A stretch of DNA of 64,000 nucleotides, from NCBI GenBank assembly GCA_949358305.1, contig OX442314.1, positions 41,734,581 through 41,798,580 on the forward strand, read 5' to 3'. The first letter of the stretch is position 1; the number at the start of each line of letters is the position of its first letter. Under the pieces are notes generated by a model, which was not told the DNA's origin, did no database searches, and was given only the letters and a program-made list of their open reading frames with translations. This DNA comes from Strigamia acuminata (lineage: Eukaryota > Arthropoda > Chilopoda > Geophilomorpha > Linotaeniidae). Position numbers and translations under genes: made by a program. Shown one piece after another: positions 16,336 through 61,817 of the stretch.

Positions 16336-16401
16336 ATGATGGAATCCCCTGCTTAAATACTGGCTATCGCGTCACGTAACAGCAACGTGCCACGTCACGT
16401 A

Positions 16402-20204: not shown

Positions 20205-20361
20205 TTGAACAATTAAAGCTATCTAATTTTTCCTTTACTCTGTGTAAAATCATTCCCCTAGACAAACATTTGGCCACAGAGTAGAAGTCCTGTACGGCAT
20301 CTCTACGACGATTATTTGATAAGTCTCCTCGATTTATTAAGTAAAAACCCGGATCGCCGCA
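20205..20361 (+). repeat. remnant of the 5' LTR of B
   Basis: Matches the last 157 bp of the 3' LTR (37614-37770) from TTGAACAATTAAAG to GATCGCCGCA. It lacks the promoter region and the hairpin array, so B should not start transcription from this end. Confidence 0.9.
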
Positions 20362-23117: not shown

Positions 23118-23122
23118 ACAGA
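23118..23122. repeat. target-site duplication of D, left copy
   Basis: ACAGA, repeated at 28800-28804. The uninterrupted gag of E at 61583 onward has a single ACAGA followed by CGCGCTC, confirming the empty site. Confidence 0.95.
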
Positions 23123-23325
23123 TGTTAGATTCTGATGATAAATTAGTTGTTAACGTAATATGATGGTTGTAACAATATGCCATGGCTGGTAATTGTTTGT
23201 AAACTAGCCATGGCAACACAGGCATTCTGGAATTCAGTCGTGAGCGACAGTCTAATAAATGAAGAAGTTGAGCTTATTCTTCCTATCTAAATTGAGAGTT
23301 GTGCTTTATTTATAAGGATTTATCA
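23123..23325 (+). repeat. 5' LTR of D
   Basis: 203 bp, TGTTAGATT to GGATTTATCA, identical to 28597-28799. It contains a perfect 9-bp hairpin GCCATGGCT / AGCCATGGC (23179-23214) and AATAAA near 23254. The following TGGTATCCACGA (from 23327) is where a primer site is expected, but I cannot assign its tRNA. Confidence 0.95.
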
Positions 23326-23444
23326 GTGGTATCCACGATAATAAGACAAATTTAAACCATGCTTTGGTTTAGTGGACAGTTGGATGCTGTTTGTGTGTGA
23401 GAAATCAACAAAAAGTGAGTTTTTGCCTACCTTTTCTGCAATTG

Positions 23445-28370: not shown

Positions 28371-28596
28371 GAGTCAAGTGCCCGTATTGTGTAATTTAAA
28401 AGAAAAAAAAGTGTTTGAAATTATTTAATGGAGTTGTTGTAAAAAGCAAAAGTAGGAGTTGTGTTTAGTAGTCCTGGGTTAAAAGTAGTAAATTGTAAAG
28501 TGTATGGTGAAGAAGCCTTAATTAACAAATGTGGTGATTTTGATTAATTTAAAAAGTGTGAAATTACAAGTGATAATCATTGTAACTGGGGAGGAA
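28371..28596 (+). other. 3' untranslated region and polypurine tract of D
   Basis: 226 non-coding bases between the stop and the 3' LTR. The purine run ending GGGGAGGAA (28584-28596) directly precedes the LTR TG and is the expected plus-strand primer. Confidence 0.75.
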
Positions 28597-28799
28597 TGTT
28601 AGATTCTGATGATAAATTAGTTGTTAACGTAATATGATGGTTGTAACAATATGCCATGGCTGGTAATTGTTTGTAAACTAGCCATGGCAACACAGGCATT
28701 CTGGAATTCAGTCGTGAGCGACAGTCTAATAAATGAAGAAGTTGAGCTTATTCTTCCTATCTAAATTGAGAGTTGTGCTTTATTTATAAGGATTTATCA
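28597..28799 (+). repeat. 3' LTR of D
   Basis: Identical to the 5' copy and followed by ACAGA (28800-28804), the right target duplication. Confidence 0.95.
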
Positions 28800-29020: not shown

Positions 29021-29066
29021 AAAAAACTTGTAAGCGCGCATCCAGACGGTCTAGTGGATGCGACGC
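29021..29066 (+). promoter_or_regulatory. -1 ribosomal frameshift signal, gag-pol junction of B
   Basis: The Gag frame reads CTA AAA AAC, placing heptamer A-AAA-AAC at 29021-29027. The Gag stop TAA is at 29031. After six bases a hairpin follows: GCG+CGCATCCA (29034-29044) pairs with TGGATGCG+CGC (29055-29066) with one bulged A. The -1 frame passes straight into pol with no stop. Confidence 0.8.
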
Positions 29067-32000: not shown

Positions 32001-33496
32001 CAGGAATTGCAAGGACTCTTTATCGAGCACGCCGAATTTATACCTGGAAAGGCATGAAATCGGACATTACGAGATTCATTCGACATTGCGAGCGTTGTCA
32101 AGCTTGCAAACCTCGAACGAAAGGACAAATTGAAGCAGCGCAAATGGGTCCTTACAGCCCATTTGACTGTCTAAGTGTTGATTTGACCGGCCCGAAACCT
32201 CGGACGCGCAAAAACAACACACATATTTTAGTCATACTTGACGTGGCAACTCATTGGCCAGAATTATATCCAATGTGTAACCCCACTGCCGGAAAAGTAG
32301 CAAATTGCATTTATCACCTTTCCATGAGCATGGGATTCCCTCGTAAAATTATTTCTGACAACGGCCCGCAATTTCGTGCCCAAGTCTTTAAAAAATTTTG
32401 TGAAAAGTTCAAGATGGTTCCAACTTCAACGTATCACCCACAAGCTAACCCGGTTGAAAGGGTTAACCGTGACATCAAATATTTGGTTGCAATTTATTCA
32501 TCTGTTCATTCCAAATGGGACGAATATTTGCGTGAATTTGCATTTAGTTTGAGAACTACGGTGACGAGAGGAAGAGACTTCTCTCCCGCATTTCTTAACT
32601 TTTTTCGCGAACTCAGAGTACCTTGGGATCCAAGAATACCTGAAGGAATTTTGGTCGTAGATCCAAAAAACCCACATTTATACGTGCAAAAATTAGAAGC
32701 CGTTATCGCCGAAACATATCAGCACATGATGTCACACGTGTTAGATTTGCGTAGACGAGTTAATCTTAAAAAAGAAGGTGAGAAGTTCTCCAATTTTAAA
32801 TTAAACGATTTAGTTTGGAGAGATTCTCATGTTTTGTCGAGCGCTGCCCGCGGCATTGCAGCTGGCATCGCTGATAAAAGAACAGGACCTTATGTAATAA
32901 CCAAAGTATTACAGGGAGGTTCGGTGGAATTGAGAAAGCTGGAAAACAACGAAATATTTCCAGCTGTCCATTCGTCGGAATTAACTCCGTATTTCCCGAG
33001 TTTCGATCAGGAAGTATGGTTAGAAGGCGAAGAAGTCGGTCAAAAGACTGAAAATATAATAAATACGTTAGATGACGATGAATTAAAGAAAATACCTGTC
33101 GATAATTCATCCAAACCACAAATGGAGTCAGACCTCGTGAATAACGACGTTGAACTTCGTGACAGTTTCAAAAAGCTTGAAATTGCTAAAAAATTAAATA
33201 AAAAGGTGTTTTTAGAAAAGAAACAAAAAACATCTGAAATAAAAGACTCATCTGACTCAGTCTCCGATGACAATGAAGATGGCGATTTAAATACAATAAA
33301 TCCCTCGCCGACAAAGAGATATAATCTTCGGACTCGTAAACCGAGAGGAAAAAACCACATGTGTCTTCTCCCCTCGATAACCTCGAGATCCAGGGATCAG
33401 CCGTATGACGTAAGGAGCAATTCCCCAAGCCATACGCAAACCAATCAAACAATAAGATTGGATGACGTCACTAACCGCGACGTTACCCAAACGTAA
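29054..33496 (+). CDS. pol: Pol polyprotein of element B
   Basis: 1480 codons, intact, from a GTG; the frame is open upstream to the slip site at 29027, so expression as Gag-Pol is expected. Protease MLDSGANRSF (about residue 165), reverse transcriptase with AYLDDIIIIS (about 519), RNase H with HTDASRKGLGAAL (about 666) and integrase HGHPLSGHPG with CERCQAC (about 974). Integrase core motifs are VDLTGPKP, ISDNGPQF and NPVERVNRD. The C-terminal tail is acidic, then basic (KRYNLRTRKPRGK). It is close to Pol of E and clearly related to A and C. It is open although the upstream gag is dead, so it is probably not translated from this copy. Confidence 0.93.
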   Translation: MDATPNASENELTPSQILDEFLNTQIKLEFENNLVFPKIDVSSLRLVLQNENITEKFFKEKVQQIKVDWESKIKDAVTLLDGKARPTPEIVERSDKIDLPGLDDCIEKLTATTLVTNDLLDELPLDPPIEIKPPRHFKCKYADIPNSNDLPTIRLQTANGMITGMLDSGANRSFMAYSVVISLKLEDEIRPIGSDVRVTTASEDVVPEGTLLLSFAWTHGMLSHPFIILRNKYPIILLGCDFMNRLNIQPNPKTMSWNFVKSLKEDLPFVPQAILDRYQEFLDPPEEIMKRDFIKANHMKAGSATACQAKVADEENVVQRLVSDANLSMENNLMLERVLKKHEKILSRRPGRTHLVRHEIKLDTKVPIRVPFKSVNPQKREIIRQICQDMLDNGYVEQATGDYGMRIVLVMRPDCDPRLCIDFRPLNAHTLYDPPQMPSIEEIFRELGRFEWVTTIDLSKGYWQIEVHPNDRAKTAFWSPLGRLQFRVMPFGLVNAPSTFQKLIEKILGDAYRKFAWAYLDDIIIISKNFEEHMIHLEEILSKLENANLHVHPEKSKFGRKELTFLGYKLSVHGVSVDPKKVAAIKEMPAPSNLKELQRFLGMVNFFHRLLKNLAVMTEPLRPLLKKDVEFIWSEIHQEAFDQIKDALTNAETMAMPDLTEPFIVHTDASRKGLGAALMQMREIDDQNIEVPCVYASRSLQPAEINYSATELECLAVIWALRKFRHYLEFTTFVVRTDHQALKWLMQLDEPAGRLARWQMELMCYSFEIQYIKGPLNVLADALSRSPIDKPENPEDDGDNDELLSYCPSPQRNWKMGKFHELPVSTLEEKEDHEFVNYWTKIYDPSEESDDVIRAQISKKFQIPSSNVLIKAFVAKIVERLDCEPPTREDIIKAQKEDKVCQLMRNFLNCNQFPPDVTTRLQRKQYRKHATTFLIEDDLLMQFHPTMSDELGEDGRALKVFVPQTLKYKIIWLMHGHPLSGHPGIARTLYRARRIYTWKGMKSDITRFIRHCERCQACKPRTKGQIEAAQMGPYSPFDCLSVDLTGPKPRTRKNNTHILVILDVATHWPELYPMCNPTAGKVANCIYHLSMSMGFPRKIISDNGPQFRAQVFKKFCEKFKMVPTSTYHPQANPVERVNRDIKYLVAIYSSVHSKWDEYLREFAFSLRTTVTRGRDFSPAFLNFFRELRVPWDPRIPEGILVVDPKNPHLYVQKLEAVIAETYQHMMSHVLDLRRRVNLKKEGEKFSNFKLNDLVWRDSHVLSSAARGIAAGIADKRTGPYVITKVLQGGSVELRKLENNEIFPAVHSSELTPYFPSFDQEVWLEGEEVGQKTENIINTLDDDELKKIPVDNSSKPQMESDLVNNDVELRDSFKKLEIAKKLNKKVFLEKKQKTSEIKDSSDSVSDDNEDGDLNTINPSPTKRYNLRTRKPRGKNHMCLLPSITSRSRDQPYDVRSNSPSHTQTNQTIRLDDVTNRDVTQT
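33463..33470. promoter_or_regulatory. TGACGTCA (CRE-type) site before ORF3 of B
   Basis: A perfect octamer inside the last codons of pol, about 240 bp upstream of the ORF3 ATG. The placement resembles the two sites in A. A related TGACGTAA lies near 33406. Confidence 0.35.
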
Positions 33497-33703: not shown

Positions 33704-36538
33704 ATGGAAGAAGAGGAACCGAAAGAAGGAAGCGAAGCCGGCGCCAACAGCCTCGAATTAGAAACAAATTCGACGTTGCTTGGTTCCGCAAACACCTCGA
33801 ATGCATCCGTGGATGTCACCGAGGCATCCGCCGAAGCTCAAGCCGAAGCTCAAGCCGCTCTAGCCGACGCTGCAGCCCGTTTGCCAGTCACGCCGCCCCG
33901 ACCACAACTACGAGGAGGCCTATTCGCCGATCCAAACGGCGAAACTCGTGCACAGAGACACGAACGGGTAAATAATTTAAAATAAAATTACCTTTCAGTC
34001 ATGAAAAGAAATTAAAAGTGCATTTTCACTCGGAAAAAGCAAAAAGTTCGTTGGTAACGTCTTCGCAAGAAGACGCCACCATTTTTATCATCAGATGGCG
34101 CTGTGTCTCATTTTTGAGGCGTTGCTACGATAACGCTCCAACATTGAAACATAGCCGTCGGAAACAACGTTTTTCACGATTTTTCAAATATTTTGAAAAA
34201 TTTAATGAATCTAAACTGTCGAATGAAATCTCACCCGTGATTTTATTCACTGAAAATTCGGAAATAATTATTTTACACGAAAAAATGGATTTTAATTATT
34301 TCTTCGAATATTTTACAGATCATCCAGCTTCGGGAGACGCATCTCAAACTGCACCCCGATGTTCCAACAGCTCCTGGAGTCTGGCGACATGCATTGCCGC
34401 CGGAAATCATCAAGTCCAAGGGGAGACTGACGTTTTGGGCGGCCCGACACAAATTCTCCAAAGCCTTAAACAAGCGATGGGGAACAAAGTTTCGGATCGC
34501 CTATTTAATCGATGGATTCGGTCATCGCGACGCCCTCGAGTGGGCAATGAAGCGCGACACCTTCGGACCACTACAAAACGTGTTGCTCAACTTCGCCTTC
34601 GTAGTGATCGCTCAAGAAACGCGAGACCATCGCCGTTACTTCAACGCTCCTGCGTGGGAGCGTCGACAGATTCTAGAGGACATTTTCCAACGCTTGGACC
34701 AAACCAAAGCCGAGGTTGTGCGCCTCTACCACGAATCTTTCCGTGTAACCACGGACGGAAAGAAACGTTGGGTGCCGACATGCCAGTCGGAAATGCATCA
34801 ATTAGCCATGGGCGGATGTTTCCATGCTGATTTCGTGCCAAACACGTATCCAGAGCCTGAGCCCCGGGTACAGGTCGCTTCCACCATCCACGTGGTGCCA
34901 CCGCGCTCCACGTCGAGGTCACGATCATCGAGGTCGCCCTACAGTGGCCGTCGCTCCTCCCCAACACAGTCGTCGGGGGAAGGCGCCATTGGAGGGTTAC
35001 CTCCACTCCAGAAGGCTCGTCATCGCTCACATCACCGACGCGAGTCGACGCCGCCAAAAAGACATTCGAAGTCCGTGTCGAGACCCACATCCCGAAGCCG
35101 ACCTCGAGTGCAATCGCGCCAATCTTCCACGAGGAGTTCACTCTCGTCGCGTGAAGAAAGGTCCAACGCTTCACAGCTTAGCGCTTCCTCTTCCGGCCGG
35201 ATTGACTGGTCGGACGAGATAGCGAAAGAAGATCAACGCATCGCCGCATTGCAAGCCGGTCAAGGAGACGTCAACACCTCTTTGCCGTTCGCTTGCCGTC
35301 CAGTCACCAGCGACATGCGACCCGATACGTCTGTGCCCGTGCCACAAGTGACAACTGTCATCCGTTTCGAGGGATACGTTTCTCCGGAACCATTTCCAGC
35401 ACAGGAGTGCGCTGATCTCTGGAGGCGATTCTCATCGTTTCCCGAGACAGCCCAAGCGATGTACCTCGCGCATCTGGACGAATACCAACTCGCTCAGATC
35501 CGCGAAGGTGAGAAGGAATGGCAATGGCTTGCGCGAGAGCTTGCGTCGTGCAAGTCCGACAAGCAACTGCAACGGACGCTGCAGAAGATGAACAGGAAGT
35601 TGTCGGAGGGACTTCTTCGGATCCTGTTCCAAGGAGTCTTTCCCGACCCACAGATTGCTCTGGCGGCCGCCACTCGATTGTGGACCGTGCCGTTAGGGCT
35701 TCCACGAGCCTTGCTGGGCGATTGGGAGTCAGTTCGCCCCGATCCTCCAACGATGCTCGCCGAATTGACGCAACAAGCCGAGGCGACTGGCGAAACTCCG
35801 GCTGGATCCGCCATTCGACTACGGCAGGAATGGGCTACACTGAAGCAGCAGCGCGCAACGGAACGAGCTACCGCCCGTCCCGCTGGCGCACCACCGTCAT
35901 CCGCAGTTCCACTCCACGCTGCCATCACGGCAACGTCGAGTGTTTCCCGTGCAACCGAGGCACCGAGTTGCAACATCTCGTCTCCAATGGAGTGGCTCGA
36001 CAGCGACGATCGCGAGTTCGTCGTGCCTGTGGCCAGCGGTGCCAGACCAAAGACGCGCGCCCCGGCTTCGCGCAGATCCAGATCCCTCTCGATCTGCAAG
36101 AAGTCGCCGCCACCGCCGCCTCCTCCAAAGGATTCGCCGCCGAGAGATAGGGGATCAAATATGGCCACCCACCTCACCGCCTATCAACGTTTGCGCTCAT
36201 TATACGCCTTTTGCTACATAACGAGCGCGACGAAAACGATTCTCCAGAACAGCGAGGATTTATGCAACCGAGTCCTCGCGTGGCTGGAAAACCACATCAA
36301 GGAACAACAGCCGTGGATCCTGCATCAACGCCTGGTGTTCGCCCGAATTACGCCTCAAGACCCGCAGGAGTATTTCGAGATGGGTTTTGGACGAAGGGAT
36401 GGTGTAGACCGCATAAAGCAAGTGTGGCTCCACATCAACCCTGGCTTCCGGTCAGGACCAAACGCCGGCCGACCTTTGTGCACCGTCACAGAGCACAAAG
36501 ATCCAAACGATCATTCAACGGACATGCTGCCTAAATAA
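33704..36538 (+). CDS. ORF3 of element B, two exons
   Basis: Exon 1 is 33704-33967 (88 codons, acidic, MEEEEPKEGSEAG, with an AEAQAEAQA repeat, ending RHER). Exon 2 is 34319-36538. Junctions are CGG|GTAAAT and TTTTACAG|ATC, phase 0, giving about 827 residues. Exon 2 has an N-terminal block (ALPPEIIKSKG, TFWAARHKFSKAL), SEMHQLAMGGCF, and an Arg/Ser/Pro-rich linker. It then has PPTMLAELTQQ with AGSAIRLRQEW, and a C-terminal block with PWILHQRL, EYFEMGFG and HINPGFRSGPNAG. These blocks recur in ORF3 of C and, as far as visible, A. No signal peptide, membrane span or enzyme motif was seen. The position is that of env, but the protein looks nuclear or nucleic-acid-associated. Function unknown. Confidence 0.75.
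33968..34318 (+). other. intron in ORF3 of element B
   Basis: 351 bp, GT at 33968 and AG at 34317-34318, with a T-rich stretch before the acceptor. Same phase and relative place as the intron in A. Several in-frame stops make readthrough translation impossible. Confidence 0.7.
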
Positions 36539-36711: not shown

Positions 36712-37770
36712 TGTGGTGACCTCAAATATTCCTATTTGAGTGCGCACCATATTTCCAAATTGTCTTATAAACATATTCAACAAGCTTATATGTTTTGTTT
36801 CAATGTAAATTGAAATAAAACATACATTAATAAAATATAAAACAAGACACAATATTGCCCAAATAATATTGTGTTTTGCAGCAAGTTTTGGCCCAGCAAC
36901 AGCGTCAACCAATCACGCTGCAGCGTGCATTGCTTTGATGATGCTGCTAGGCGTGTGCCTGGGCGGAGCATCCCTTCCCCTCGCGCGTGCCCGGCTCAAT
37001 TGTTGCACACGACCCGAAGGCGGCCGTGTGTGATCTTTGTGCAACTCGTCATCTGCGCAGCTTTTCTGAGCAGATTTAGAAGTGAGCCAAACGGTTTTGG
37101 CCCACTCTTCCCGCATTCTTGATTCTGCTTCCAAACCATTCACATCTGTGTCAAACTTATGCCAAACCCTGCTAAGTGTGATCTGTGATATCTGGAAGAG
37201 TTGAGATTCATTGCTGGTCTGTACCAACTGTACAGAATAGCGCCTTTCTGCTTGAATTACTACACGTAATTTAAGCCATTTCTGTGTGGAATTGACATTG
37301 AGCTTGCTCTGTCAATTTGAAGGCTTTGTGTCGAGTTTAACTCCACAAAGCGATTTGTGTAAAGACCGATTGTTACGTCGAGCTTGCTCCGTAATAATCG
37401 AACCGCTGTGTGCAAGACGTATTCTCGTGTCGAGCGTGCTCCACGAGGATTTTTAGTATATTCAGCAACGTATTTTAGCGTCTACTCCGCTAAAATCCCG
37501 CGCTTACACGACGCCATCGACGCCATCTTGGAGCCAACGGTCAACTGTGAGTGTATATTTGAAGAAGAAGCCAGATCGACCCCCAACATTTTGAATAATA
37601 CCTCCTTTGTATTTTGAACAATTAAAGCTATCTAATTTTTCCTTTACTCTGTGTAAAATCATTCCCCTAGACAAACATTTGGCCACAGAGTAGAAGTCCT
37701 GTACGGCATCTCTAAGACGATTATTTGATAAGTCTCCTCGATTTATTAAGTAAAAACCCGGATCGCCGCA
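36712..37770 (+). repeat. 3' LTR of element B
   Basis: 1059 bp, TGTGGTGACC to GATCGCCGCA. It is homologous over its length to the 5' LTR of E (57755-58830). It contains an AT-rich palindrome (ACACAATATT..AATATTGTGT near 36849-36874) and the hairpin array at 37250-37496. ORFs on either strand are not supported. Confidence 0.92.
37250..37497 (+). promoter_or_regulatory. hairpin array in the LTR of B
   Basis: One leading hairpin, GCTTGAATTAC/GTAATTTAAGC (from 37250), then five hairpins. The first four have an outer stem, a 2-nt bulge, an inner GAG/CTC stem and a 4-5 nt loop. Outer stems include AATTGACA/TGTCAATT (37290-37317) and CTTTGTG/CACAAAG. The fifth (37472-37496) keeps its 9-bp outer stem but has lost five bases of the core. 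Compare the array in E at 58294-58545. Confidence 0.8.
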
Positions 37771-43809: not shown

Positions 43810-46800
43810 TTAAATGAAAGGGATATTCATGAAAATAAACGTTTCCCGAAAAGACTTATTTTTGGAAACAACCATATTTGTTTCTGTTCTCTGGCCGCAA
43901 TCGGCCCACTCGGGTGTTTTAGGTGAAGGTAAGTCTACTGACATCATGTCCGTCTCGTCGGACAACGGACTTCCGCTCTCGTTGACATTGATAAACGGTT
44001 GTCCCGTATTCGGCCCTGACGAAAGGCCGGGGTTGACGTGTATCCACACACCTCGGATGAGTCTGGATAAGGCGTCATCTCCAAACGCCATTTCGTAAAA
44101 TTCTTGCGGGTTGGACGGGCGTCGGCGAGCTCGGATCAGCCGTTGATGCAACATCCACGGCCTCCTCCTTCGTATCTTCCGCTCAAGCCAGTTGAAAACG
44201 TGGTGGCACAGCTCCACATTGTGTTTGAGCAAAATTCGAGTATGCGGGTGCATCTCGAGTCTTGGGTAAGTTCTTCGCAGCATAATGTAGATCGAGCTGC
44301 TCTCTTGCTTCTTGGTTTCGGCAGCTCCAGCCGCCGGTTGAATTGATTTCGGTGGATCGTCCTTCTTGGGCGATGGAGTGGGCGCTCGAATAGGCGAATG
44401 AACGCTCCCTGGTGGCGTCGGTGGGTTGGGCGCTGCAGCCGACTCGTCTGGACGCTCTATGTAACAAGATCGGCCCCCTGGCCGGAGGATCAAAGCTCCG
44501 CGTGGCTTCGGTCGAGCTCCGGGTCGCGCCCCCGAATCGGTGCCTTCGACGTGCGTGAAAAACGTGGTTGAACTTGAGGTCGCAGCTCGACCTCGACTCG
44601 GTCCAGGTCTCGGATCGTCAAAATTTTCTATCTCCATAGGGACATGACCATTGGACGGTTCAGTCGTAGTTTGGGCAACAGCTTGGCTTTCGATTGCGGC
44701 AGCAGTTGGCGTGTAAGTGGCTTCTGGCGTCTTTCTTCTAGGCGTCTGATCCCTCGGCGGCATTCCTGCCGGTCGAATTGTTTTCAGTTCTTGCTGAAAA
44801 GTGATTTTGCGCATGTCCCACTCGCGTCGGAGACGAATGGCCGATGCGGCCGGGCTTTCTCCAATGACGGCAACTTGGCGCATCAATTCGCTGCACATGG
44901 TGGGCGGATCCAATTGGATGGACCGCCAACAATCTAGAAACTCCGGTTTAACGGCCATGGCGGCCGTTCTTAGGCATGTTGTAGCAGCGAAGCCCGGTCT
45001 CGGGCTGTCAAACACCCCGGGAAACAAAATTCTCCGACAACTCGGCACAAGCTGTCGCTGCAACTCGTTCAAACGTGGGTCGTCGGGTCCCGTCGGCTCC
45101 ATTCGGTTTAGCAAGCCGGCGACACGACGACTACCCCTCAAACTCTCGGCGACTTGAGCCATTTGGTATAAGTCCATGTCAGACAACTCAATCTCCTGAG
45201 TCTCTAACGGCGCTTCACAGAACCCCTGCCACATGGCGTCATAATGCTGGTCGAATCCCTTTTTCAAAACTTGGGAAACCATCCCGAATTTTCTCGTGGG
45301 CAGTCGAGGCTCTGGAAGACTCGGGTCTGGGTTTATCGAATCCATGCACTCTCTACACTCCACAGGAGTCGGCCCATCGACTGGCCGGTGACTCGCCTGG
45401 TCATTCGATTCTTGTGCGCTTGGAAGGCTCTTCCATTCACAGGCCGTGTTGTCGGCCATTGTTGGAGGCGAAATTCTGTAGCTTCGGTCTACGATGTGGA
45501 CTTCCGCGGAACTTCCTCCCTCCAAGGCGGACACTGACGTCGGTGTATTTAACATCAAAGTCTCGTTGGATCCTATCGTTGGTTCTTCTGCATCGGGCGA
45601 TTGGAAGCAGGCATCCCAATCGGCTTGCTGCTGCTCCAACGCTGCTTTTCTGCGAAGGGTGACTTGCATGGAATGCTCTTCTACTTCGCGATCCCATCGG
45701 CCAGGCAATTCGTCGTCCTTGGGCGGTGGTGGCATCAGGGCCAAGCGTTCGCGCTCTAACTTTTCGCGGTTTTTTCGGCCTGCACGATGCTTGAGTCGGC
45801 CGTTGGCACGAAGCAAATCTGGTCTGGTTCCTGGGTGAGCAACGTACGGATCCACTCCTCCAGGGTATCGGCAAGCCGCGTCCCATCGTGAAACTCTGGC
45901 TTCCAAAACATTATCAACGGCTCTTAAAGCCGTATTGTGGTGATTGCCACAGGTCATCTTGGCACGTGGTTCGCTTGATGCGACTGAATTCGACCGCTCT
46001 CGTTTATCATTGCGTTCCTGGTCGTGATATGCGTCTCTTTGACGTTCCCAGTCACGAAATCGGGCACGAGCGTAGCCGAAATGTCCGGCCATTCCCAAAA
46101 TGTGCATCTCGTATTGTGAACTGGCGAGGTCTGCCAAATCATAATGTTTACGTCGATCGGCCCACCAGGCCTGCTCTTCTTGTAGCTTTCGCATAACTTC
46201 ATCCTTCCGGGCCTTGAGTTTCTCCCAGATGGCATCCAAATAGTCGTTCCTTTTGGCATGTGCAATTCGGAAAAACCCGTAGAAGTCCGTGTCTTCCTCC
46301 TCCGTGGGAAAGAGCCAGCCAAAAAGCAATCTGGATCCCAACGGTGATGGCGGATCGATTCCCAGGTTCCAGGAAACGGGGTCGGCCACCACCAGCCGTC
46401 CACAAATTCGGCATCCACAGCCCCAACGTGCGGCGATGGCACCTGAGAACTCCCGTCTCACATCCTCCCACGTCTGACCAAGCTGTCGCAAACGTCGGAC
46501 TTCGGCGGACAATTCGCCTCTAAAAATTCCTGTTACCATGGGTACGTAATCTGGTAACGCGTACGGCTGATTGATTGCCATTAATATCTACAGAAACGTT
46601 TGAAAGTTTTAATTATTAACTGGTAAATAATATTTTGTCTAAATATTTTTTAGCAAAAGGTAATTGAGCGCTGTCGTCATGGCAACTCCCTCACAACGCT
46701 TACTAGCCGTCGGGCGAAGTCACATGATCATAAAAAATGGCGCCATTTGAAATTTGTTAAATAATTTTTTGAACTGACAAAGTTTTTCTTGAATTTTTTC

Positions 46801-50300: not shown

Positions 50301-51756
50301 GGGTTAAACCTATCTGCCAGTAGCCTTTTGTCAAGTCGATTGTGGTGACCCACTCAAATGAACCAATTTCTCTTAAAATTTCTTCGATTGTCGGCATCTG
50401 AGGAGGATCATATTCTGTATGTTCGTTTAATGGCCGGTAATCTACACAGAGGCGTGGTTCAGCCCCCGGTTTGACCACTAAAACAATTCGCATGGCATAA
50501 TCTCCAGTGGCAGGCACAGCGATTCCCTTGTCCACCATATCCTGGCAGATTTGCCAAATTATTTCCCTTTTCTGAGGGTTATAACTTTTAAATGGTACCC
50601 TTATAGGTTTATCAGTTGTCAGCTTGATATCGTGCTGCACTATGTGTGTACGTCCAGGAACTCTTGATAGAATTCTCTGTCGTCTCTTTAATACTTCCGC
50701 CAATGAGAGTCCTTGCTCCAATGTTAGATTGGCATCATTCACCATTTTGGTGATATCATCTCCCATTTTCAGAGTAGCTGCGCCAGCCAAAATTCCTTCA
50801 TGACATACAAATGTAGCATTGTCTGGCGGTAATTCTTCAATTTTGGTTTTATATCTGTCCAAAACTGACTGCGGTATATATGGTAGAGTTTCGGTCAATG
50901 GAGTAATAAAATTCCATGACATCGTTTTCGGATTCGGCTGTATACTTAGCCGCTTCATGAAATCATTTCCCAATAAAATCATCGGGAAGCGGTGTTCAAT
51001 AACTATGAAAGGATGCACAAGGACTCCATGTGTCCATCGAAATGACAGCAACAGGGTTCCGACTGGTTGAATATCTTTGCCAGCCGTTCCAATACAGAGA
51101 CTTGGCGAGATGTATTGTAATTCTTTTTCTAATTTCAGATTTTCCATTACTGAAGCCGCCATAAAGCTTCTATTGGCTCCAGAATCTAACAATCCAGTAA
51201 TCGGTCCTTTCATGGTTTGTAGTTGTATCTTCGGAATTCCCGTAAAATCTTCCATGTTCAAATTGCAGGTGACTCTACGTATCCGATGTTCTAATGCAGG
51301 ATAATCAATAGGTAGTTCGTCCATTTCATCGTTATATGATAGAACGACTTTTTCCATAGCTCTAGTTATTTCTTCAATTTCATCGACCTCTTTCGACCTG
51401 GGACGGAATTTTTCCCAAAGTTTGTCCATCCAATTTTTACTTGGTTTGGGATAGCACTGTAGCGCCTTCCTAACGTGATATTGAAAGTAGCGTTTGTCGG
51501 CCGTTTTTTCGGCCAAGACTTCGTTAAGTTTTGCAATGTCAACTTTAGGAAATCTCAGGTCACATGGTTTAAACTGAGCTACCATCAAATGTTTTTTATC
51601 TACTGAATCCCAGTAGTCTAAATAGTTTTTATCCAATGGTTCACGGTAATCATGGGTTACTTCAATCTTGGGACAAACGTCGACGTCCATTTCCTTAATT
51701 GTTTCCGAGGCAACGGGCGCGAGTTTCAGCGTATTCGCTGCCAAACCCGCGCTCAC
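47345..51756 (-). pseudogene. pol: Pol of element C, broken by a 16-bp deletion
   Basis: Frame 1 (51756-49333) holds protease LLDSGANRSFM, reverse transcriptase AYLDDIITVS and RNase H HTDASRQGLGAAL. Frame 2 (49375-47345) holds integrase: HGHPLSGHSG, CQRCQAC, ADLMGPKP, LSDNGSQF and NPVERTNRD. At about 49384-49385 the codons after YIKGP are missing. Comparison with B shows 16 bases lost between GGTCC-like and GATGCT, which shifts the frame. The upstream frame then ends within about 20 codons. Everything else is intact. As sequenced, this copy should make protease-RT-RNase H but no integrase. An assembly error is possible. Confidence 0.88.
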
Positions 51757-51765
51757 AAGTTTTTT
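51717..51765 (-). promoter_or_regulatory. -1 ribosomal frameshift signal, gag-pol junction of C
   Basis: On the minus strand CGA AAA AAC gives heptamer A-AAA-AAC (51765-51759). TTGTGA follows, with the Gag stop TGA at 51755-51753. A strong hairpin comes next: GCGCGGGTTT (51752-51743) pairs with AAACTCGCGC (51726-51717) with one G-U pair. An inner CAGCG/CGCTG stem caps it with an AATA loop. Quite different in sequence from the B/E hairpin but in the same place. Confidence 0.8.
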
Positions 51766-54365
51766 CGGAGCAGTTCCCCCAACTTGCTGACAAGACCTTC
51801 TATCTCGGCAGCTGCTGGACTTCTATCAGGACACTGATTCGACCAATGCCCCAACTTTCCACATCTATGGCACGGATCAGTTTCTGGTGACTTGCGCCTA
51901 GGACCGTTTCCTGAAGTGGGCGACTTTGAACGAGGTTCTACGGCTTTTTTATCTGTAGCCGATTCCTTTTCAGTATCCGGAATCACTTCGGGCTTGATGG
52001 GTAGCGGCAAAGGTGATTTTGATCGAGCATCTGTATTAAGGTTTGCTGTATTAAAAGTAACGTTTTTACCAACCATTTTTGGTCTGAATTTATTCTCAGT
52101 AACATGCTTCGCGAGTAATACAATAGCATTCTCAACTAAAGGGTCTAGCCCTGGGTCGTCTTCTTCGACTACATCAGTGCTGTCCTCTGACAAGGCAAGA
52201 TTCGCGTAAGCTCGAGAATTTTTGAGTAGTTTGTGGGGTTTCGGAGGTCCGGCACTTGTAGTTTTATCCGTCTTCTCCGCAAAGTAATCCCCTCGATCTC
52301 GGGGTTGCATTAAAGGAGCTTGTCCAAGCCTAGCTTCTTTCACATATTCTTTAATGCGTAACTGCCGTTTTTTAATAGCTGCAGTTTCCTCCGGAGTCAA
52401 ATATTCATTATACTTTTCTTCAATTCTCAGGTCATTATCCCTTAAAAATTGTGAGAGTTCTTTGAATGATCCGACCGGCGGTGCATCAACATTTTGCAGA
52501 ATACTTCGGGAATATGGTGTCATTGCCTTTCGAAATTTTCTGTCCACATCATGGTCAGTAGATGGCGTTGGTAATGATGACAACAAATCTTCGGTTCGGC
52601 GAAGATATGAACGAATGTCTTCTCCCGCTGATTGAGCTAGATTGTCCCATAACTGATAAATATCTTCAGTAGGTTCAGCGTACTCTCGCATGAATGCTTC
52701 TACAAATTGATTCCAATGCACGAATTCTCGTTCAACGAACCAATTTTCGGCGCGTGCCACCAATGATTTTGGGACTAACTTCTCCAAAGTATCTTGAGGT
52801 GTTATACCATTTAGTCGAGCCATTCTGGTAATTTCTTCCAAAAAGGTTGATCCCATTTGGAATTCTCCATTAAAACGATCAGGGACTAATCGATCCCATC
52901 GAATTGTTTTCACATCGGCAATTTTATGCCGCCACTTATCAGTGGTGTATTTCGCAATTTTGCGCTTCAAGTCGAATTTACGTAACTCTGCTAGCCGTGT
53001 GTTTCGACTTGCTGACTGCGCTTGTTTTTGAAACATCGCGTCGATCTGTTCAGCGGTGTAATAACGTTCGTCGCTTGACTGAGATCTTCTTGATTTCGTC
53101 CTTGAACGACTCTTTCGCTCTTTCCGCGTCTCAGATCGAGTAGATTTTTCGCCTTCCGAAAGGGATTCGTCCTTCGACCCTCGTGGCGGAGGTACATTGT
53201 CGTATTTCTGACGCTCATCCCCCTTATCACGATCTTCGGGGTCTGGAGATGCCCTTCGACTTCCAGGTTGGTCGTAATTATCGTAATTATCGTTGGACCG
53301 GTGCGAATCGTTTTGTATTTTCATACGATTTCTTTCATCCATCATGGTCATGAGTTTGTCGCTATTAGTGAAAATTTCGGCATCTGAAGCGCCGTTCTTT
53401 TTGGATGTAGGCCCCTCAGCATTGGAACATCTTCTTTTGCGCGACTGTCGCTCATCTTCACTTGATGTTTGAGACGATTCGTCGGTTGCAGAATCTTCCA
53501 GCCGCACGACTTTCTTTTTCACCTTGGCGGCAGGACCTTTCTGTTGTGAGGCGAATTCAGCAACACGTATTCTTTCTTGTTCCTCCTCAAATTCCTCTTG
53601 TTCTCTCAGCAGTTTGGCTCGCCGTAGCTCATCTTCAGTTTCTTGAGCTTTTTTGTCGGCGGCTGCCATTTGTCTACGGAGTTCTTCATTAGATGATTCC
53701 TGTTGCTTTATGGAATCCCAAGCAATCTTCTGCTCTCTATTAAAGACTTCATTCTCTTTTTTAGACAAATGTTTCTTTCGAGCATCGAATTCCATGCGTT
53801 GGCGCTCCAGTTCGTCCGACTGTTTTTTCAACTTTTCTTCACTGTGACGGTACTGAGCGTTTATTTCTCGCAGAGCTTGATTCGATTTTTCAGCAGCTTC
53901 CTTGGCTTGAGACGCTGAGTTCATTTTTCGAGTAACAGCAGCCATCTGCTCGTTCATATGATCGACTAGGCGTTTTCTTTCATGATTAGACATGGCTTCG
54001 TAAATCTCCATAATAGTCATCTGATCAGTTACTTGTACCCCCTGGAGAATTGCTCGATCCAGAAGTTCCTTGTAACCCACCGGTTGCGTATCAGGAATCT
54101 CGATGTTGTCCAAATCCATGGAAGAATCACCCCAGTTCGTTGGTCCAGCGGAAATCGCTTCTTCGCGTTCTTCACCGCCTGTTCCAACTTCCTTAGTAAT
54201 GACACTCTCGGCGGCAACAGCGTCAATAGCTTCGGCTACATGTTGAGCCGTTAGACTATTACGTGCCGTTCTAGGACGACCCGATCTACGGCGCTTAGCG
54301 CCCGTTTTCGTACGAGTCTGTACTCCTTCATCATCAATGGGGTTTTCTCCTTCTGAGTTAGACAT
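51753..54365 (-). CDS. gag: Gag of element C
   Basis: Intact, 870 residues, ATG at 54365 (MSNSEGENPIDDEG). An AT-hook-like RSGRPRTAR lies at about residues 28-36. It is followed by YKELLDRAILQGVQVTDQMT, the counterpart of the DALRNQARQDG segment of E, a long coiled coil (about 130-280), a basic Ser/Arg-rich region, and the capsid-like helical region. The C-terminal CX2CX4HX4C knuckle CHRCGKLGHWSNQC is at about residue 840. The reading frame ends 6 bases after the slippery heptamer. Function: virion-like particle assembly and genomic RNA packaging, by homology to Ty3/Gypsy Gag. Confidence 0.92.
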   Translation of the reverse strand: MSNSEGENPIDDEGVQTRTKTGAKRRRSGRPRTARNSLTAQHVAEAIDAVAAESVITKEVGTGGEEREEAISAGPTNWGDSSMDLDNIEIPDTQPVGYKELLDRAILQGVQVTDQMTIMEIYEAMSNHERKRLVDHMNEQMAAVTRKMNSASQAKEAAEKSNQALREINAQYRHSEEKLKKQSDELERQRMEFDARKKHLSKKENEVFNREQKIAWDSIKQQESSNEELRRQMAAADKKAQETEDELRRAKLLREQEEFEEEQERIRVAEFASQQKGPAAKVKKKVVRLEDSATDESSQTSSEDERQSRKRRCSNAEGPTSKKNGASDAEIFTNSDKLMTMMDERNRMKIQNDSHRSNDNYDNYDQPGSRRASPDPEDRDKGDERQKYDNVPPPRGSKDESLSEGEKSTRSETRKERKSRSRTKSRRSQSSDERYYTAEQIDAMFQKQAQSASRNTRLAELRKFDLKRKIAKYTTDKWRHKIADVKTIRWDRLVPDRFNGEFQMGSTFLEEITRMARLNGITPQDTLEKLVPKSLVARAENWFVEREFVHWNQFVEAFMREYAEPTEDIYQLWDNLAQSAGEDIRSYLRRTEDLLSSLPTPSTDHDVDRKFRKAMTPYSRSILQNVDAPPVGSFKELSQFLRDNDLRIEEKYNEYLTPEETAAIKKRQLRIKEYVKEARLGQAPLMQPRDRGDYFAEKTDKTTSAGPPKPHKLLKNSRAYANLALSEDSTDVVEEDDPGLDPLVENAIVLLAKHVTENKFRPKMVGKNVTFNTANLNTDARSKSPLPLPIKPEVIPDTEKESATDKKAVEPRSKSPTSGNGPRRKSPETDPCHRCGKLGHWSNQCPDRSPAAAEIEGLVSKLGELLRKNL

Positions 54366-54436
54366 ACTGGGTTAGACAGATAAGAGAGAAAGATGATAGG
54401 AAAGTAGGAATAAATTCTAAATTTAAACAATTGGTA

Positions 54437-54454
54437 ATCCCGGACGGGCCCCCA
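54437..54454 (-). other. primer binding site, tRNA-Pro, element C
   Basis: TGGGGGCCCGTCCGGGAT two bases inside the 5' LTR; same as in A and B. Confidence 0.9.
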
Positions 54455-54456
54455 AG

Positions 54457-55634
54457 TGTTGCGTTCCTGATGGTTCCAATTGAATTTTCACAACAACACT
54501 AAATTTATATTTAGTCACTATGGGATTTTTCCAATTGCAAGAGATCCCGGCGTTCACCTGTGGAAGCAGTTGAATGCCGTTTATAGGTCTTCTATCGGGT
54601 GGGTTAGCCGTTAAGTCGGTGTCTAGGGATTTGATCTCGAATAAAGGCTAGTTTAGTTATTTTAAATCAAACAGTTAATCAATTTATTGAGCGTTAATTA
54701 CAGGTTCAATTGAAGAGAATGTTAATAAAATGGGTTCTATGAGAATGATGTCGTCGGCGTGGAAGGCGACGTGCTCGAAGCAGCGCGGGACTCCTTCGGG
54801 CGGGAAAAAGCAGTGCAGAAATGGCGACACGTCGCCGCGCAAATTCTGCGAAGTGAGAAAGGAAGTGTGAAGCCGAAAGACTTCACAAAGGGTGTCGGTT
54901 GTTAAGCCTGACAAGACGGGAAATCTTAGGTTAAACCCTAGATTGCAACGGGAGATTTCCGTTGGAGACAAGTAGTCAAACGGCGGGTACCGCCGATCGT
55001 TAAAACCTGACTGGAGATCCGCTACAATCTGAATCGGAATCGTCGTCAACAGGTCGAGGAGCGGCGACGATGGCTCTGCAATCCTCGGCGGCTGGCTGGC
55101 GTCGATCTTCAACGGCGTGGGCGCGTTGGTCTTCGGGCGGCGGCGGGAACGACGGTGGTTTGGGCCGTCGTGCGTCGTCTTCGCGGCTCGGAAAGTGATT
55201 CGTTTGAACGTTGGTTCAAACAAATCGGGTTGAAACTTGGCAAACTCACGAGTCACGGACAAAACAGTGTTTTTGGTTAGTGAACAAAGCTGTGTCGGTG
55301 TGAACGGTATGAGTGTGATGCAAAGAGTGAGTAATAATTCGAATCACTACTCGGAATATGGCCGGAAAACGGCCAGTGCGCAGGCGTGGCGTGTGCCAAG
55401 GCACGCTTCAGCCCTAGCAACGGTGCAAAATTTGGGGATTGACTTAGCAACGCCCCAATCCAGGGCTCAAAATGCCAGGGCAGCCGTTACAGCTTCTGGG
55501 CCAATTGCCCAAAAGCGCAACAGGTGCACGGCAAAAACACAATTCTAATGATTATGGTTAAAATATAAATAATATCTTAAAAACGTGGTAGAAAAACTTC
55601 TCCACAAATGAAGTGAACATTTGAGATCGCAACA
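54457..55634 (-). repeat. 5' LTR of element C
   Basis: 1178 bp, the same as 42473-43650 at every place compared. Ends CGCAACA|ATTT at the right target duplication. A candidate AATAAA lies at 54688-54683 (minus). Confidence 0.95.
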
Positions 55635-57754: not shown

Positions 57755-58830
57755 TGTGGTGACCTCAAATATTCCTATTTGAGTGTGCACCATATTTCCA
57801 AATTGTCTTATAAACATATTCAACAAGCTTATATGTTTTGTTTCAATGTAAATTGAAATAAAACATACATTAATAAAATATAAAACAAGACACAATATTA
57901 CCCAAATAATATTGTGTTTTGCAGCAAGTTTTGGCCCAGCAACAGCGTCAACCAATCGCGCTGCAGCGTGCATTGCTTTGATGATGCTGCTAGGCGTGTG
58001 CCTGGGCGGAGCATCCCTTCCCCTCGCGCGTGCCTGGCTCAATTGTTGCACACGACCCGAAGGCGGCCGTGTGTGATCTTTGTGCAACTCGTCATCTGCG
58101 CAGCTTTTCTGAGCAGATTTAGGAGTGAGCCAAACGGTTTTGGCCCACTCTTCCCGCATTCTTGATCTTGCTTCCAAACCATTCACATCTGTGTCAAACT
58201 TATGCCCAAACTCGCTAAGTGTGATCTGTGATATCTGGAAGAATCGAGTTTCATCGCTGGTCTGTACCCACTGTACGGAATAGCAACTTTCTAGCTTGAA
58301 TTACTACACGTAATTTAAGCCATTTCTGTGTGAAACTAACATCGAGTTTACTCTGTTAGTTTGAAGGCTTTGTGTCGAGTTTAACTCCACAAAGCGAGTT
58401 GTGTAAAGACCGATTGTTACGTCGAGCTTGCTCCGTAATAATCGAACCGCTGTGTGCAAGACGTGTTCTCGTGTCGAGCGTGCTCCACGAGGATTTTAGT
58501 ACATTTTAGCAAAGTATTTTAGCGTCGAGTTTACTCCGCTAAAATCCCGCGCTCACACGACGCCATCGACGCCATCTTGGAGCCAACGGTCAACTGTGAG
58601 TGTAGATATTGAAGAAGAAGCCAGATCGACCCCAAACATTATTATTTCATTTCAAATATACCTCCTTTGTATTTTGAACAATTAAAACTATCTAATTTTT
58701 CCTTTACTCTGTGTAAAATCATTCCCCTAGACAAACATTTGGCCACAGAGTAGAAGTCCTGTACGGCATCTCACCGACGATTGCCTATTGAATTTATATA
58801 ATTTAATAAGTAAAAACCCGGATCGCCGCA
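57755..58830 (+). repeat. 5' LTR of element E
   Basis: 1076 bp, TGTGGTGACC to GATCGCCGCA, homologous to 36712-37770 with scattered substitutions and a few indels. The AT-rich palindrome near 57889-57914 and the hairpin array are both kept. Confidence 0.93.
58294..58545 (+). promoter_or_regulatory. hairpin array in the LTR of E
   Basis: A leading hairpin (58294-58320) is followed by five at 58333-58362, 58367-58395, 58411-58444, 58466-58493 and 58516-58545. Each of the five has an outer stem of 8-11 bp, then TC on the 5' side, GAG, a loop of 4-5 nt, and CTC. The outer stems are unrelated to one another (AAACTAACA, GCTTTGTG, CGATTGTTACG, TTCTCGTG, ATTTTAGCG), and mismatches are mostly G-U. Role unknown; candidates are RNA packaging, translation control or a protein-binding cassette. 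Confidence 0.85.
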
Positions 58831-58832
58831 CT

Positions 58833-58850
58833 TGGGGGCCCAGCCGGGAT
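58833..58850 (+). other. primer binding site, tRNA-Pro, variant
   Basis: TGGGGGCCCAGCCGGGAT; two adjacent bases differ from A, B and C in the middle, which should weaken primer pairing. Confidence 0.8.
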
Positions 58851-58922
58851 AGTTTTGATTGTTAAAATCCGATTTTTGCAAAAAGATCCTTTATTTCCAT
58901 TGTTCTTTTTCAATTTGACAAA

Positions 58923-61817
58923 ATGGCGACGCCAATGCAAATTGTAAAACGACAGCGAGGTCGACCAAGCACTCAGAAACGAGCAGCGACGGTTTTGCCG
59001 GCTCTCGAGCCTGAAATGCTTATGGAGAAAATTATTTCCGAGGAAATAACACCAATTCCAGATCCGAAACAACTTAAGGATGCTGAAAATGAAGTTGTTC
59101 GAGCCCTGAGCGCATCAAGTGCGAGTTCTAACGAACAAGAACTCCCGCCACTTCCACTGGAGGAAGTGGAAAATACGTTACGTGAAATGGAAAGTGAATC
59201 GTCTCACGAATCACCTCCTCGCATGACCATGTTGGATGCTTTGAGAAATCAAGCACGCCAAGATGGCGCCCAAATAACGGACGACATGACGGTGGAAGAG
59301 ATTCATCGCGCCATGATACGACTTCACACTGATCGTGCCGTTTCAAATTTACAGTTTGAAATGGAACGAAAAGAAGCTGAGCTTCAACAACAAAAAGCGG
59401 AGGTTGAGCTTCAACACATGGAACTCAATCGACAAAATGAGGAATTTCTGGCCCAAAAAGCTAGAGAATACAGATTGAAAGGTGAAGTGGAAGATCTTTC
59501 TAAAATGAATACTAGGACTGAACTTTCAATTCGCTCACACCAAGAGGCGCGAAGACAGCTCGAGCTTACCAAAAGTAAGCTGGAGCAGAAAAATAAAGAA
59601 CTGATTGATTTGGCAGACCACTACCAACGCAATCATAATCAACTAGTGAGATATGCTGCTGAATTAGACACACGTGCTAAAACACAGCGTACTCGCGAAA
59701 GCAAAATAGCTAAGCGTGAAGACGAGATTTTCCACTCGCTGGGCCAACCCAGTACGAGCAAACAAGTCAAGTCTAGCGGCCCTGCTAAGCGATTACAACC
59801 AGCAGAATCGCAAAATCAAATAAATGAGAATGAAATTCTCCGAGCTGATTTGTTGCGCGCTCAAGAAGAGCTTGCAGAAATGAAAGATCGTTTGCAAGCA
59901 AGAAATTATACTGACCAATTGGTACAACCAGAAATGGCTGCGCCAACTGATCCTATTTTAACTCCCGAAACAATAACAATTTCCGTTGTTTCAGAGTTAA
60001 GTAGCCAATCTGGATTATCGAGTGATGACGACCAACGTTCGCGTCGCCGCCATCGCTCAAAAAGAAAACGTCCTTCAGATTCTGAGGAACGGAGAGCTGA
60101 TCGCAATCCGCTCCCAGGTAATCGAAACCCTATTTTTCACAATAGTGACCGACTGTTGGGGATGGTAGACGATCGAAATAGACGGCATGAAACTGGTATT
60201 CATGTTACACGAACGATACCACTGGCTCAACAGCAAGACTCGTCGAAAAGAAGTCGACGAGACACAAATCCAGCACGCGAACCACCCGACGGACATGAAA
60301 GCCCGCCAGGTGGGGGTCAGTATAGAAGAAATCCACCAGATGGAGGAAATCCAGATGGACACGGAGATGGACCACCTGGAGGTGGACGTCGACCGCCAGA
60401 TGATGACGGCGACCCACCCGACCCACCTGAAACGCCACATTTCAACACACCTTCAAATTCACAATCTGATTCAAGGTCGGATTCTGATGCGAATGCGCAA
60501 CAAGAACGCGATAATCGACATCGATCTCGTCGACGTCGACATCGAGGCCATTCTTCTCGGCGTAATACACATTATTACACTGCTGAAGAAATTGATCGAT
60601 TATTAGCTGATCGTCGATCTTCCGATCGATCTGACGCTACTGCCGATAATGCTGACATTGCATTACGACAAAAAATTGCACAATACACTGCCAACAACTG
60701 GACTCACGATCTAGTTGATGAAAGAACTATTAGATGGGATCACATCAAACCCGCTTTATTCGATGGAGAATGGGAAGCAGGATCCACTCTTTTAGATGAA
60801 GTTTTACGAATTTCAAGGTTGAATGGCATTGCATGTCACACTGCTTTGAAAAGAGTAGTACCAAAAGCTCTTATAGATCGAGCTGAGAAATGGTTTTATT
60901 CTAAACAATTTCAAAATTGGAACCACTTTGTAGAAGAATTCATGACTGAGTATGGAGAGTCAAGTGAAGACTTATTACAAATGTGGGATAATCTTTCTCA
61001 AAATAAAGGCGAAAGTCTTCGCTCTTATTTAAGAAGGACTGAAGATTTATTGGTCACTCTCCCTTATACGATGGGAGACGCAGCCATTGATCGTCAATTC
61101 CGTCGTGGATTGACAGATTATTCAAAAAATGTTCTACTTTCTGTACGAGCACCTTATCCGGGTGGTTTCGCTGAATTAGCCAAATTTATGCGAGCCAATC
61201 AGATAAGAATTGATGAAAATTATAAAGCTTATCTACCAGCTGATGAAAAAGTTGCGTACGCTAAGCGACAGCAAAGGAGAAAGGAATTGGCAAAAGACAC
61301 ACGTTTTGCTAACACCCCTCTTTTGCAACCCCCAAAACGAGGAGATTTTTTGGCAGAGACTGCCAAGGAATCGAAAAAGGGAGCGGATGGAAAAAACCCT
61401 CATCCAACCCCAAAAGCTCACTTAGCCGAAGTGACAGAAATGGAAGCTGCTTCTGAACCAGAGAAATCTGACTCGGAACCAGAAAGCGAGGCTGCAGCTG
61501 CTTTATTAGCCCGTAATAACGCAGTAGCTCGAAAATTTGGACCAAAGATGGCGCCTAAAAACGTTACTTTTGGTTCACCAAAGACAGACGCGCTCAGTAG
61601 ATCGAAGTCGCCGACCCCTAAAAAGGACGAAGCCAAACGTTCAAGTTCGCCTTCGCCAAAAGTCGCTAAATCGCCTGCTACTGACCCGTGTAACATTTGT
61701 AAAAAATTAGGACATTGGGCTAAAGAGTGTCCTGATAGGAAATCGAGCAAAGACAAGATTATTGAGGAGTTCGAAAAATCGATGAAATCAATCGGCGAAC
61801 TTCTAAAAAACTTGTAA
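58923..61817 (+). CDS. gag: Gag of element E, intact
   Basis: 964 residues from ATG (MATPMQIVKRQRGRP, AT-hook-like). Segments: DALRNQARQDGAQITDDMT (about 105-123), a long coiled coil (about 145-275), a basic region with RSRRRHRSKRKRPSD (about 380) and a Pro/Gly-rich stretch. The capsid-like region runs about 600-790 (TIRWDHIKPALFDGEWEAG, ESLRSYLRRTEDLL), and the zinc knuckle CNICKKLGHWAKEC is near 925. The frame ends at TAA 61815-61817, four bases after the slippery heptamer. It is the best reference copy for the broken Gag of B. Confidence 0.95.
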   Translation: MATPMQIVKRQRGRPSTQKRAATVLPALEPEMLMEKIISEEITPIPDPKQLKDAENEVVRALSASSASSNEQELPPLPLEEVENTLREMESESSHESPPRMTMLDALRNQARQDGAQITDDMTVEEIHRAMIRLHTDRAVSNLQFEMERKEAELQQQKAEVELQHMELNRQNEEFLAQKAREYRLKGEVEDLSKMNTRTELSIRSHQEARRQLELTKSKLEQKNKELIDLADHYQRNHNQLVRYAAELDTRAKTQRTRESKIAKREDEIFHSLGQPSTSKQVKSSGPAKRLQPAESQNQINENEILRADLLRAQEELAEMKDRLQARNYTDQLVQPEMAAPTDPILTPETITISVVSELSSQSGLSSDDDQRSRRRHRSKRKRPSDSEERRADRNPLPGNRNPIFHNSDRLLGMVDDRNRRHETGIHVTRTIPLAQQQDSSKRSRRDTNPAREPPDGHESPPGGGQYRRNPPDGGNPDGHGDGPPGGGRRPPDDDGDPPDPPETPHFNTPSNSQSDSRSDSDANAQQERDNRHRSRRRRHRGHSSRRNTHYYTAEEIDRLLADRRSSDRSDATADNADIALRQKIAQYTANNWTHDLVDERTIRWDHIKPALFDGEWEAGSTLLDEVLRISRLNGIACHTALKRVVPKALIDRAEKWFYSKQFQNWNHFVEEFMTEYGESSEDLLQMWDNLSQNKGESLRSYLRRTEDLLVTLPYTMGDAAIDRQFRRGLTDYSKNVLLSVRAPYPGGFAELAKFMRANQIRIDENYKAYLPADEKVAYAKRQQRRKELAKDTRFANTPLLQPPKRGDFLAETAKESKKGADGKNPHPTPKAHLAEVTEMEAASEPEKSDSEPESEAAAALLARNNAVARKFGPKMAPKNVTFGSPKTDALSRSKSPTPKKDEAKRSSSPSPKVAKSPATDPCNICKKLGHWAKECPDRKSSKDKIIEEFEKSMKSIGELLKNL

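Follow-up and report, generated by a model that had tools for sequence, protein, structure and literature searches.

Element E and its relatives in the window

The window, by which we mean the whole 64-kb stretch of DNA analysed in this work, corresponds to C1:41734581-41798580 of an arthropod genome of 237.5 Mb and contains an LTR retrotransposon of the Ty3/gypsy type, here named E (Table 1). The class was assigned from the LTR pair, the target duplication and the gag zinc knuckle of E together with the RT-RNase H-integrase order of pol in a related element, B; pol of E lies largely outside the window and the pol domains were taken from B. The two LTR loci of E were 99.8% identical when compared and are flanked by the target duplication ATGG, and the near identity of the pair indicates that the insertion is probably young. 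The LTR is followed by a probable primer binding site, which may resemble a tRNA-Pro site. Gag of E carries two arginine-rich stretches, RSRRRHRSKRKR and RHRSRRRRHRGHSSRR, and gave no match at E 0.001 when used as query against the PDB.

The surroundings of E are rich in related and nested sequences. The match of B's 5' LTR to other LTRs is confined to its final part (20205-20361), which would account for its missing 5' array, with tandem repeats directly upstream. Large tandem repeats are found beside B (three copies about 1686 nt apart, 16401-20151), and the segment 14770-16264 holds 56-nt and 110-nt repeats with inverted copies. A GC-rich, nested Ty3-type element with 204-nt terminal repeats (23122-28799) sits inside B, between its gag ORF and pol. 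Both B and a further element, D, have an ORF 3' of pol in surroundings of about 54-55% GC, that of B encoding 714 aa with an RS-rich stretch (34394-36538, plus strand) and that of D 923 aa (43810-46581, minus strand); neither had a Pfam match at E 0.001.

Table 1 Positions of the features of element E and of related element B in the window.
Feature	Position	Strand	Description
LTR of E	57755..58830	+	1076 nt, TGTGGTGACC...GATCGCCGCA; boundaries set by eye from loci L002/L004
ATG-free stretch of E	58204..58922	+	719 nt, between the LTR's final ATG and the beginning of gag
Hairpin 0	58294..58320	+	11-bp stem, 5-nt loop, without GAG/CTC core
Hairpin 1	58333..58362	+	core start 58342; 9-bp outer stem, UC bulge, GAGU..ACUC
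Hairpin 2	58367..58395	+	core start 58375; 8-bp outer stem, UC bulge, GAGU-UUA-ACUC
Hairpin 3	58411..58444	+	core start 58422; 11-bp outer stem, GAGC..GCUC
Hairpin 4	58468..58491	+	core start 58474; outer stem 6 bp, or 9 bp with G-U; GAGC..GCUC
Hairpin 5	58516..58545	+	core start 58525; 9-bp outer stem, GAGU..ACUC
ATTAAA, candidate polyadenylation signal	58681..58686	+	downstream of the array in E
Probable primer binding site	58833..58850	+	adjoins the LTR of E; seen in the sequence
gag ORF of E	58923..61817	+	964 aa; Retrotrans_gag, one CCHC knuckle (Pfam)
pol ORF of B	29054-33496		RT, RNase H, integrase (Pfam)
Array in LTR of B	37289..37495	+	four core hairpins, 37298, 37331, 37378 and 37430

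A tandem array of bulged hairpins in the LTR

When both strands of the window were scanned for the pattern T[C/T]GAG-N3-6-CTC within an outer stem of 4 bp or more, nine hairpins were obtained, five in the LTR of E, four in that of B and none elsewhere. The five hairpins with a GAG/CTC core that the first-pass annotation had described in the LTR of E were thus located at the positions it claimed, and their outer stem sequences do differ from hairpin to hairpin; the interval that it gave for the array (58294..58545) holds these five and also a sixth, coreless hairpin at its 5' end, which we numbered 0. Each of the five consists of an outer stem of 8-11 bp (G-U allowed), a U-Y bulge and a GAGY...RCUC core. 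In B, the GAG of the fifth hairpin has been lost through a 5-nt deletion.

When folded in context with RNAfold, E forms hairpins 1, 2, 3 and 5, the outer stem of hairpin 4 pairing elsewhere, and B forms hairpins 1, 3 and 4 but not hairpin 2, whose outer arms are engaged elsewhere. In the RNAalifold structure, a linker is the partner of the 3' arm of hairpin 4. The linkers at 58326, 58399 and 58450 share a CUGUGUG-like motif, followed by AAGAC in two of the three, and this motif is possibly part of an ancestral repeat unit.

Copies in the genome

All copies come from one genome, in which 467 instances of two cores at a spacing of 16-46 nt were counted, as opposed to one for the pattern read backwards. 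We used 140 of 141 array records, drawn from 139 loci and from the two LTRs in the window with some places repeated, and these correspond to 98 distinct arrays. The record left out, L082 (C1:50046500-50047300), matched the pattern without matching the array and contains three or more TCGAGTNGACTC-like cores at intervals of 36 nt. When only strict cores with outer stems of 5 bp or more were counted, five hairpins were present in 66 of the 98 distinct arrays, four in 19, seven in five, three in five and two in three; the same 98 arrays read backwards have none. Over the aligned part, 57 of 76 distinct arrays are at least 90% identical to E or B. Three overlapping loci (L015, L042 and L043) comprise two arrays with ten hairpins inside 3.4 kb, pointing to two LTRs close together.

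Arrays with seven hairpins, detected at 15 loci in 11 places, indicate that hairpin number can vary. In four of the five distinct arrays of this subfamily, hairpins 1-2 of the B type are followed by hairpins 1-2 of the E type. Simple duplication in the absence of structural constraint had been named beforehand as an origin that would speak against selection; duplication is evident in the seven-hairpin form, where hairpins 1-2 occur twice, but the lack of constraint is not, since the stems were kept.

Compensatory changes in the stems

Covariation was analysed in a non-redundant set obtained by dropping 11 of the 98 arrays and retaining, from the other 87, the 56 that fell below 97.5% identity; a subset of 25 was also drawn. 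Of the 4009 pair cells in the 56 arrays, 98.9% hold standard pairs, and two-sided changes affect ten of the 72 pairs, in 130 cells, with stems intact down to 68% pairwise identity. When the 3' partners were slid by 1-3 columns, only 36-43% of cells remained paired and 3-12 were two-sided, and the covariation score was 0.137 for the true pairs versus at most 0.047 for the slid ones. Of 500 shuffles, none attained 130 two-sided cells, whereas 29 attained ten two-sided pairs and all equalled or surpassed the observed count of pair types. In a tree-based null of our own design (94 of the 98 arrays, L063, L105, L108 and L123 being dropped; 324 columns; 200 simulations), hairpin pairs ranked 1, 2, 3, 8, 9, 12 and 41 among 51,360 column pairs, with only two column pairs at E<0.05.

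The signal is unevenly spread. Two-sided changes are clear in hairpins 0, 1, 2 and 5 and weak in hairpin 3, and hairpin 4 had none among the 56 arrays. In hairpin 0, C-G replaces U-A at one stem pair in 8 of the 56 copies; in hairpin 1 the changes fall on two outer pairs and the loop-closing pair, in hairpin 2 on the basal pair and the loop-closing pair, and in hairpin 5 on two outer pairs, each of which has a different pair type, with both sides changed, in 26 of the 56 copies. The nearly invariant hairpin 3 has C-G for U-A in three copies and U-G for G-U in one. The two pairs of hairpin 1 reported to differ on both sides between B and E do so, and the covariation across family copies that had been proposed as a check was found above both the tree-based and the slid controls. 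Compensatory change in excess of phylogenetic and slid-pair expectations thus marks a conserved structure, with no such change from hairpin 4. The copies share a history, possibly with gene conversion among them.

Polarity of the intermediates

A single transition turns a Watson-Crick pair into either G-U or A-C. Over the whole tree, changes from Watson-Crick pairs to G-U outnumbered those to A-C (69.7 vs 26.0). On internal branches there were 19 of the former and 3 of the latter, 16 two-sided changes between Watson-Crick pairs and 0.4 other breaks, a polarity with p=3e-5 against the rate ratio of 0.75 in unpaired columns when mean parsimony counts are treated as independent events. Terminal branches carried 50.5 changes to G-U, 23 to A-C, 8 two-sided changes, 18 from Watson-Crick to other combinations and 4 from G-U to other combinations; treated likewise as independent events, these mean parsimony counts gave p=0.017 for an expected ratio of 1.25. 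We infer that the weaker terminal signal stems from dead copies that are decaying. The excess of G-U over A-C intermediates points to selection on the plus-strand (sense) RNA, and a function of the DNA or of antisense RNA is disfavoured by the same polarity.

Together with the covariation among copies and the few broken pairs on internal branches, this polarity supports the earlier proposal that the structure is under selection. The case that would have contradicted it, with pairs broken as often as kept, was not seen, although breaks are commoner on terminal branches.

Probable position of the array in the transcript

The 719 nt between the last ATG of the LTR and the start of gag contain no ATG, where 10.4 are expected, and 12 CAT; ATG is the most depleted trinucleotide of the stretch, and its absence was matched by none of 20,000 Markov simulations. 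From 88 nt upstream of hairpin 0 to the end of the LTR, 35.2 kb of sequence from 56 of the 60 long loci, duplicates included (L013, L014, L031 and L056 omitted), hold 579 CAT and no ATG. In 40 distinct loci, no ATG occurs from -50 to +499 nt of the start of hairpin 0 and 19 occur at 51-100 nt before it, and ATTAAA is found 360-420 nt past this start in 38 of the 40.

The ATG-free stretch and the downstream ATTAAA suggest that the array lies in a scanned 5' leader, most likely in R. The assignment to the 5' leader is an indirect one, drawn from the ATG-free stretch, and the location within R is probable. An earlier TATA and AATAAA (about 57.80-57.89 kb) were considered as promoter and polyadenylation signal of a leader of about 1.1 kb, an arrangement disfavoured by the ATGs in that stretch. 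A splice-donor-like GTGAGT lies 3' of the array (58596-58601) and is kept in 26 distinct aligned rows.

Two related elements, whose gag genes lie at 7026-9578 and 51753-54365 on the minus strand of the window, were examined as a sister family carrying the same array and rejected, since they have long ATG-free leaders and no GAG/CTC array. These leaders measure about 0.9 kb (9579-10490, minus strand) and 1.25 kb (54366-55617, minus strand); the former includes a CTTTGTG/CACAAAG stem like that of hairpin 2 and a hairpin like hairpin 0.

A nearly invariant core

Core composition was determined for 471 of 475 hairpins, after removal of L063, L105 and L108 and of any hairpin with three or more gaps, the two extra hairpins of the seven-hairpin arrays lying outside the count. 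From its base upward, the core reads as a purine-pyrimidine pair, a bulge of U plus one free nucleotide, G-C, A-U and G-C pairs and a pyrimidine-purine pair. The nucleotide before the bulge is G in 349 hairpins, A in 121 and U in one; the first bulge position is U in 470 and C in one, the second C in 310, U in 151, A in nine and G in one. In the second upper pair, A is present in all 471 and its partner U in 470, and the two G positions flanking it and the two C positions opposite them hold G and C, respectively, in 934 of 942 instances each. The fourth pair, at the ends of the loop, is nearly always U-A or C-G and covaries as a pyrimidine-purine pair. Bulge and loop had been described as free to change, which applies to the second bulge position but neither to the bulge U nor to the loop ends, both of which are constrained.

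The positions that hardly vary coincide with those of the arginine sandwich of TAR and 7SK as given in the accessible part of one study (PMC6189040), a mapping made post hoc. There, U23 of TAR forms the sandwich, capped by A27-U38 and resting on A22, and the arginine contacts G26 and G28; in 7SK the corresponding parts are U40, A43-U66 and A39, and G42 is contacted. When the 7SK pair A39-U68 was made G-C (A39G, U68C), HEXIM no longer bound and Tat bound about five-fold less well (PMC6189040). We roughly estimate that about 1 in 50 bulged hairpins would show the three sandwich features by chance. From the match to TAR and 7SK we infer that each core may bind arginine in the manner of their arginine sandwich.

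Comparison with known systems

By their leader position, the array hairpins, like the TAR of HIV-1, HIV-2 and SIV as far as the sources at hand describe it, would be bulged hairpins early in a transcript. In TAR, the bulge U, the G-C, A-U and G-C pairs above it and the purine below it are the sandwich or contact positions in the text available (PMC6189040), and the array core has all of them. HIV-1 TAR differs in its 3-nt bulge and hexaloop, the array hairpins having a 2-nt bulge and 2-3-nt loops above the loop-closing pair. The array is also set apart by its host, a Ty3/gypsy-type arthropod element, and by its five to seven hairpins; for HIV-2 TAR, three stem-loops are possible, depending on the model, in the accessible text of one report (PMC10970485). 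Stem-loop 1 of 7SK has a two-nt U-U bulge followed by G-C and A-U, again as described in the part available (PMC6189040), and is similar to the array in this respect; in contrast, the 7SK described there has four bulges inside a single helical turn, and 7SK carries GAUC on both strands, whereas the array has GAGY/RCUC and one bulge per hairpin. The host genome contains one Arthropod_7SK gene above the gathering score and two HEXIM matches above the cut-off (L140, L141 and L142), and ACAUUGA is present at the bulge in both the host 7SK and hairpin 1 of B; an arthropod host is deduced from the 7SK match. Rfam gave no match for the whole window at gathering scores; for the leader at E up to 10, RAGATH-27, CRISPR-DR49 and mir-57 appeared below gathering, and neither TAR nor 7SK.

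Several small RNA sites serving one capsid or Gag are also a trait of RNA-virus packaging signals and retroviral psi hairpins, according to the accessible parts of two sources (PMC7499256, PMC6281560), from which the array differs by lying upstream of the probable primer binding site. For yeast Ty3, the available text states that Gag has one zinc finger and a basic region that are required for RNA association and packaging (PMC4974528); it describes no hairpin array and uses 'stem-loop' once and 'hairpin' not at all. Among the literature matches listed, in which subscription journals are scarcely covered, no title concerned such an array in an LTR element.

Proposed function and alternatives

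TAR and 7SK exemplify a small bulged hairpin used as a switch for RNA polymerase or as a handle for arginine-rich proteins. We propose that the tandem, sense-selected hairpins of the leader, probably in R, act as a docking platform for an arginine-rich protein, most likely Gag, and, on the sequence evidence at hand, we give this reading a probability of about 55%. The array would offer multivalent docking, and the most likely partner would be E's own Gag, with its two arginine-rich stretches and zinc knuckle. Its docking could mark the full-length RNA for packaging or assembly. Scanning ribosomes would traverse the array on their way to gag, which would explain the absence of ATG. An arginine-rich Gag was also considered as a trait unique to the array carrier and rejected; two sister Gags without an array have basic stretches as well, so Gag and array are not tied together and the evidence from Gag is permissive.

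The likeness to TAR and 7SK allows another, clearly less probable reading, in which a mimic of these RNAs near the promoter binds HEXIM, a different elongation regulator bearing an arginine-rich motif or a protein of the element, P-TEFb is released or recruited and the polymerase elongates. The core is laid out like TAR and stem 1 of 7SK in the text available (PMC6189040), the array would be placed like TAR, early in the transcript and probably in R, and the host has the 7SK gene and HEXIM matches that such a mimic would engage, including the ACAUUGA common to 7SK and B hairpin 1. One published study is titled 'Cellular mRNA Activates Transcription Elongation by Displacing 7SK RNA' (PMC1995758). 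However, hairpins 2-4 carry G-C below the bulge, the change that abolished HEXIM binding according to the accessible text (PMC6189040), which argues against HEXIM at these hairpins and is more in keeping with an arginine peptide of the Tat-like or Gag-like kind. The 7SK site, as far as it is described there, has extra bulges, one of them on the opposite strand, that the array hairpins lack, no Tat-like gene was noticed in an unsystematic search, and five to seven copies seem more than elongation control needs. That the element has independently evolved the TAR trick, with five to seven 7SK-mimicking hairpins in R that hijack HEXIM/P-TEFb or an arginine-rich element protein for transcription, is a tentative and rather unlikely idea. 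We also regard as doubtful that an unrelated protein of the host or the element binds the array for RNA export, RNA stability or control of gag translation, the TAR likeness being coincidental. The strong structural constraint is compatible with it, the ATG-free gag leader would suit a translation control element too and B encodes an RS-rich stretch in its third ORF, but the positions that are nearly invariant are those of the arginine sandwich and not those of just any stem.

Explanations that do without an RNA function fared worse. Palindromes are features of DNA too and the array sits in an LTR, where they could be binding sites or cruciforms of a promoter or insulator with no role in RNA; we consider this very improbable, since neither DNA nor antisense RNA would favour the plus-strand excess of G-T over A-C (69.7 vs 26.0, and 19 vs 3 internally) and the outer stems are unlike one another. 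Hardly credible is the view of the hairpins as unconstrained tandem duplicates that still pair merely because the copies are young: the high identity of many arrays to E or B and the duplicated hairpins 1-2 of the seven-hairpin form would agree with it, but the two-sided changes and few breaks on internal branches, the slid-pair control and the stems that stay intact among the most divergent arrays do not.

If the array is an independent, multi-copy system of the TAR/7SK kind in a young arthropod retrotransposon, its 98 distinct natural variants from one genome would amount to a natural experiment on which hairpin positions matter, and the array would point to a new place in which to seek the control of transcription or packaging in LTR elements.
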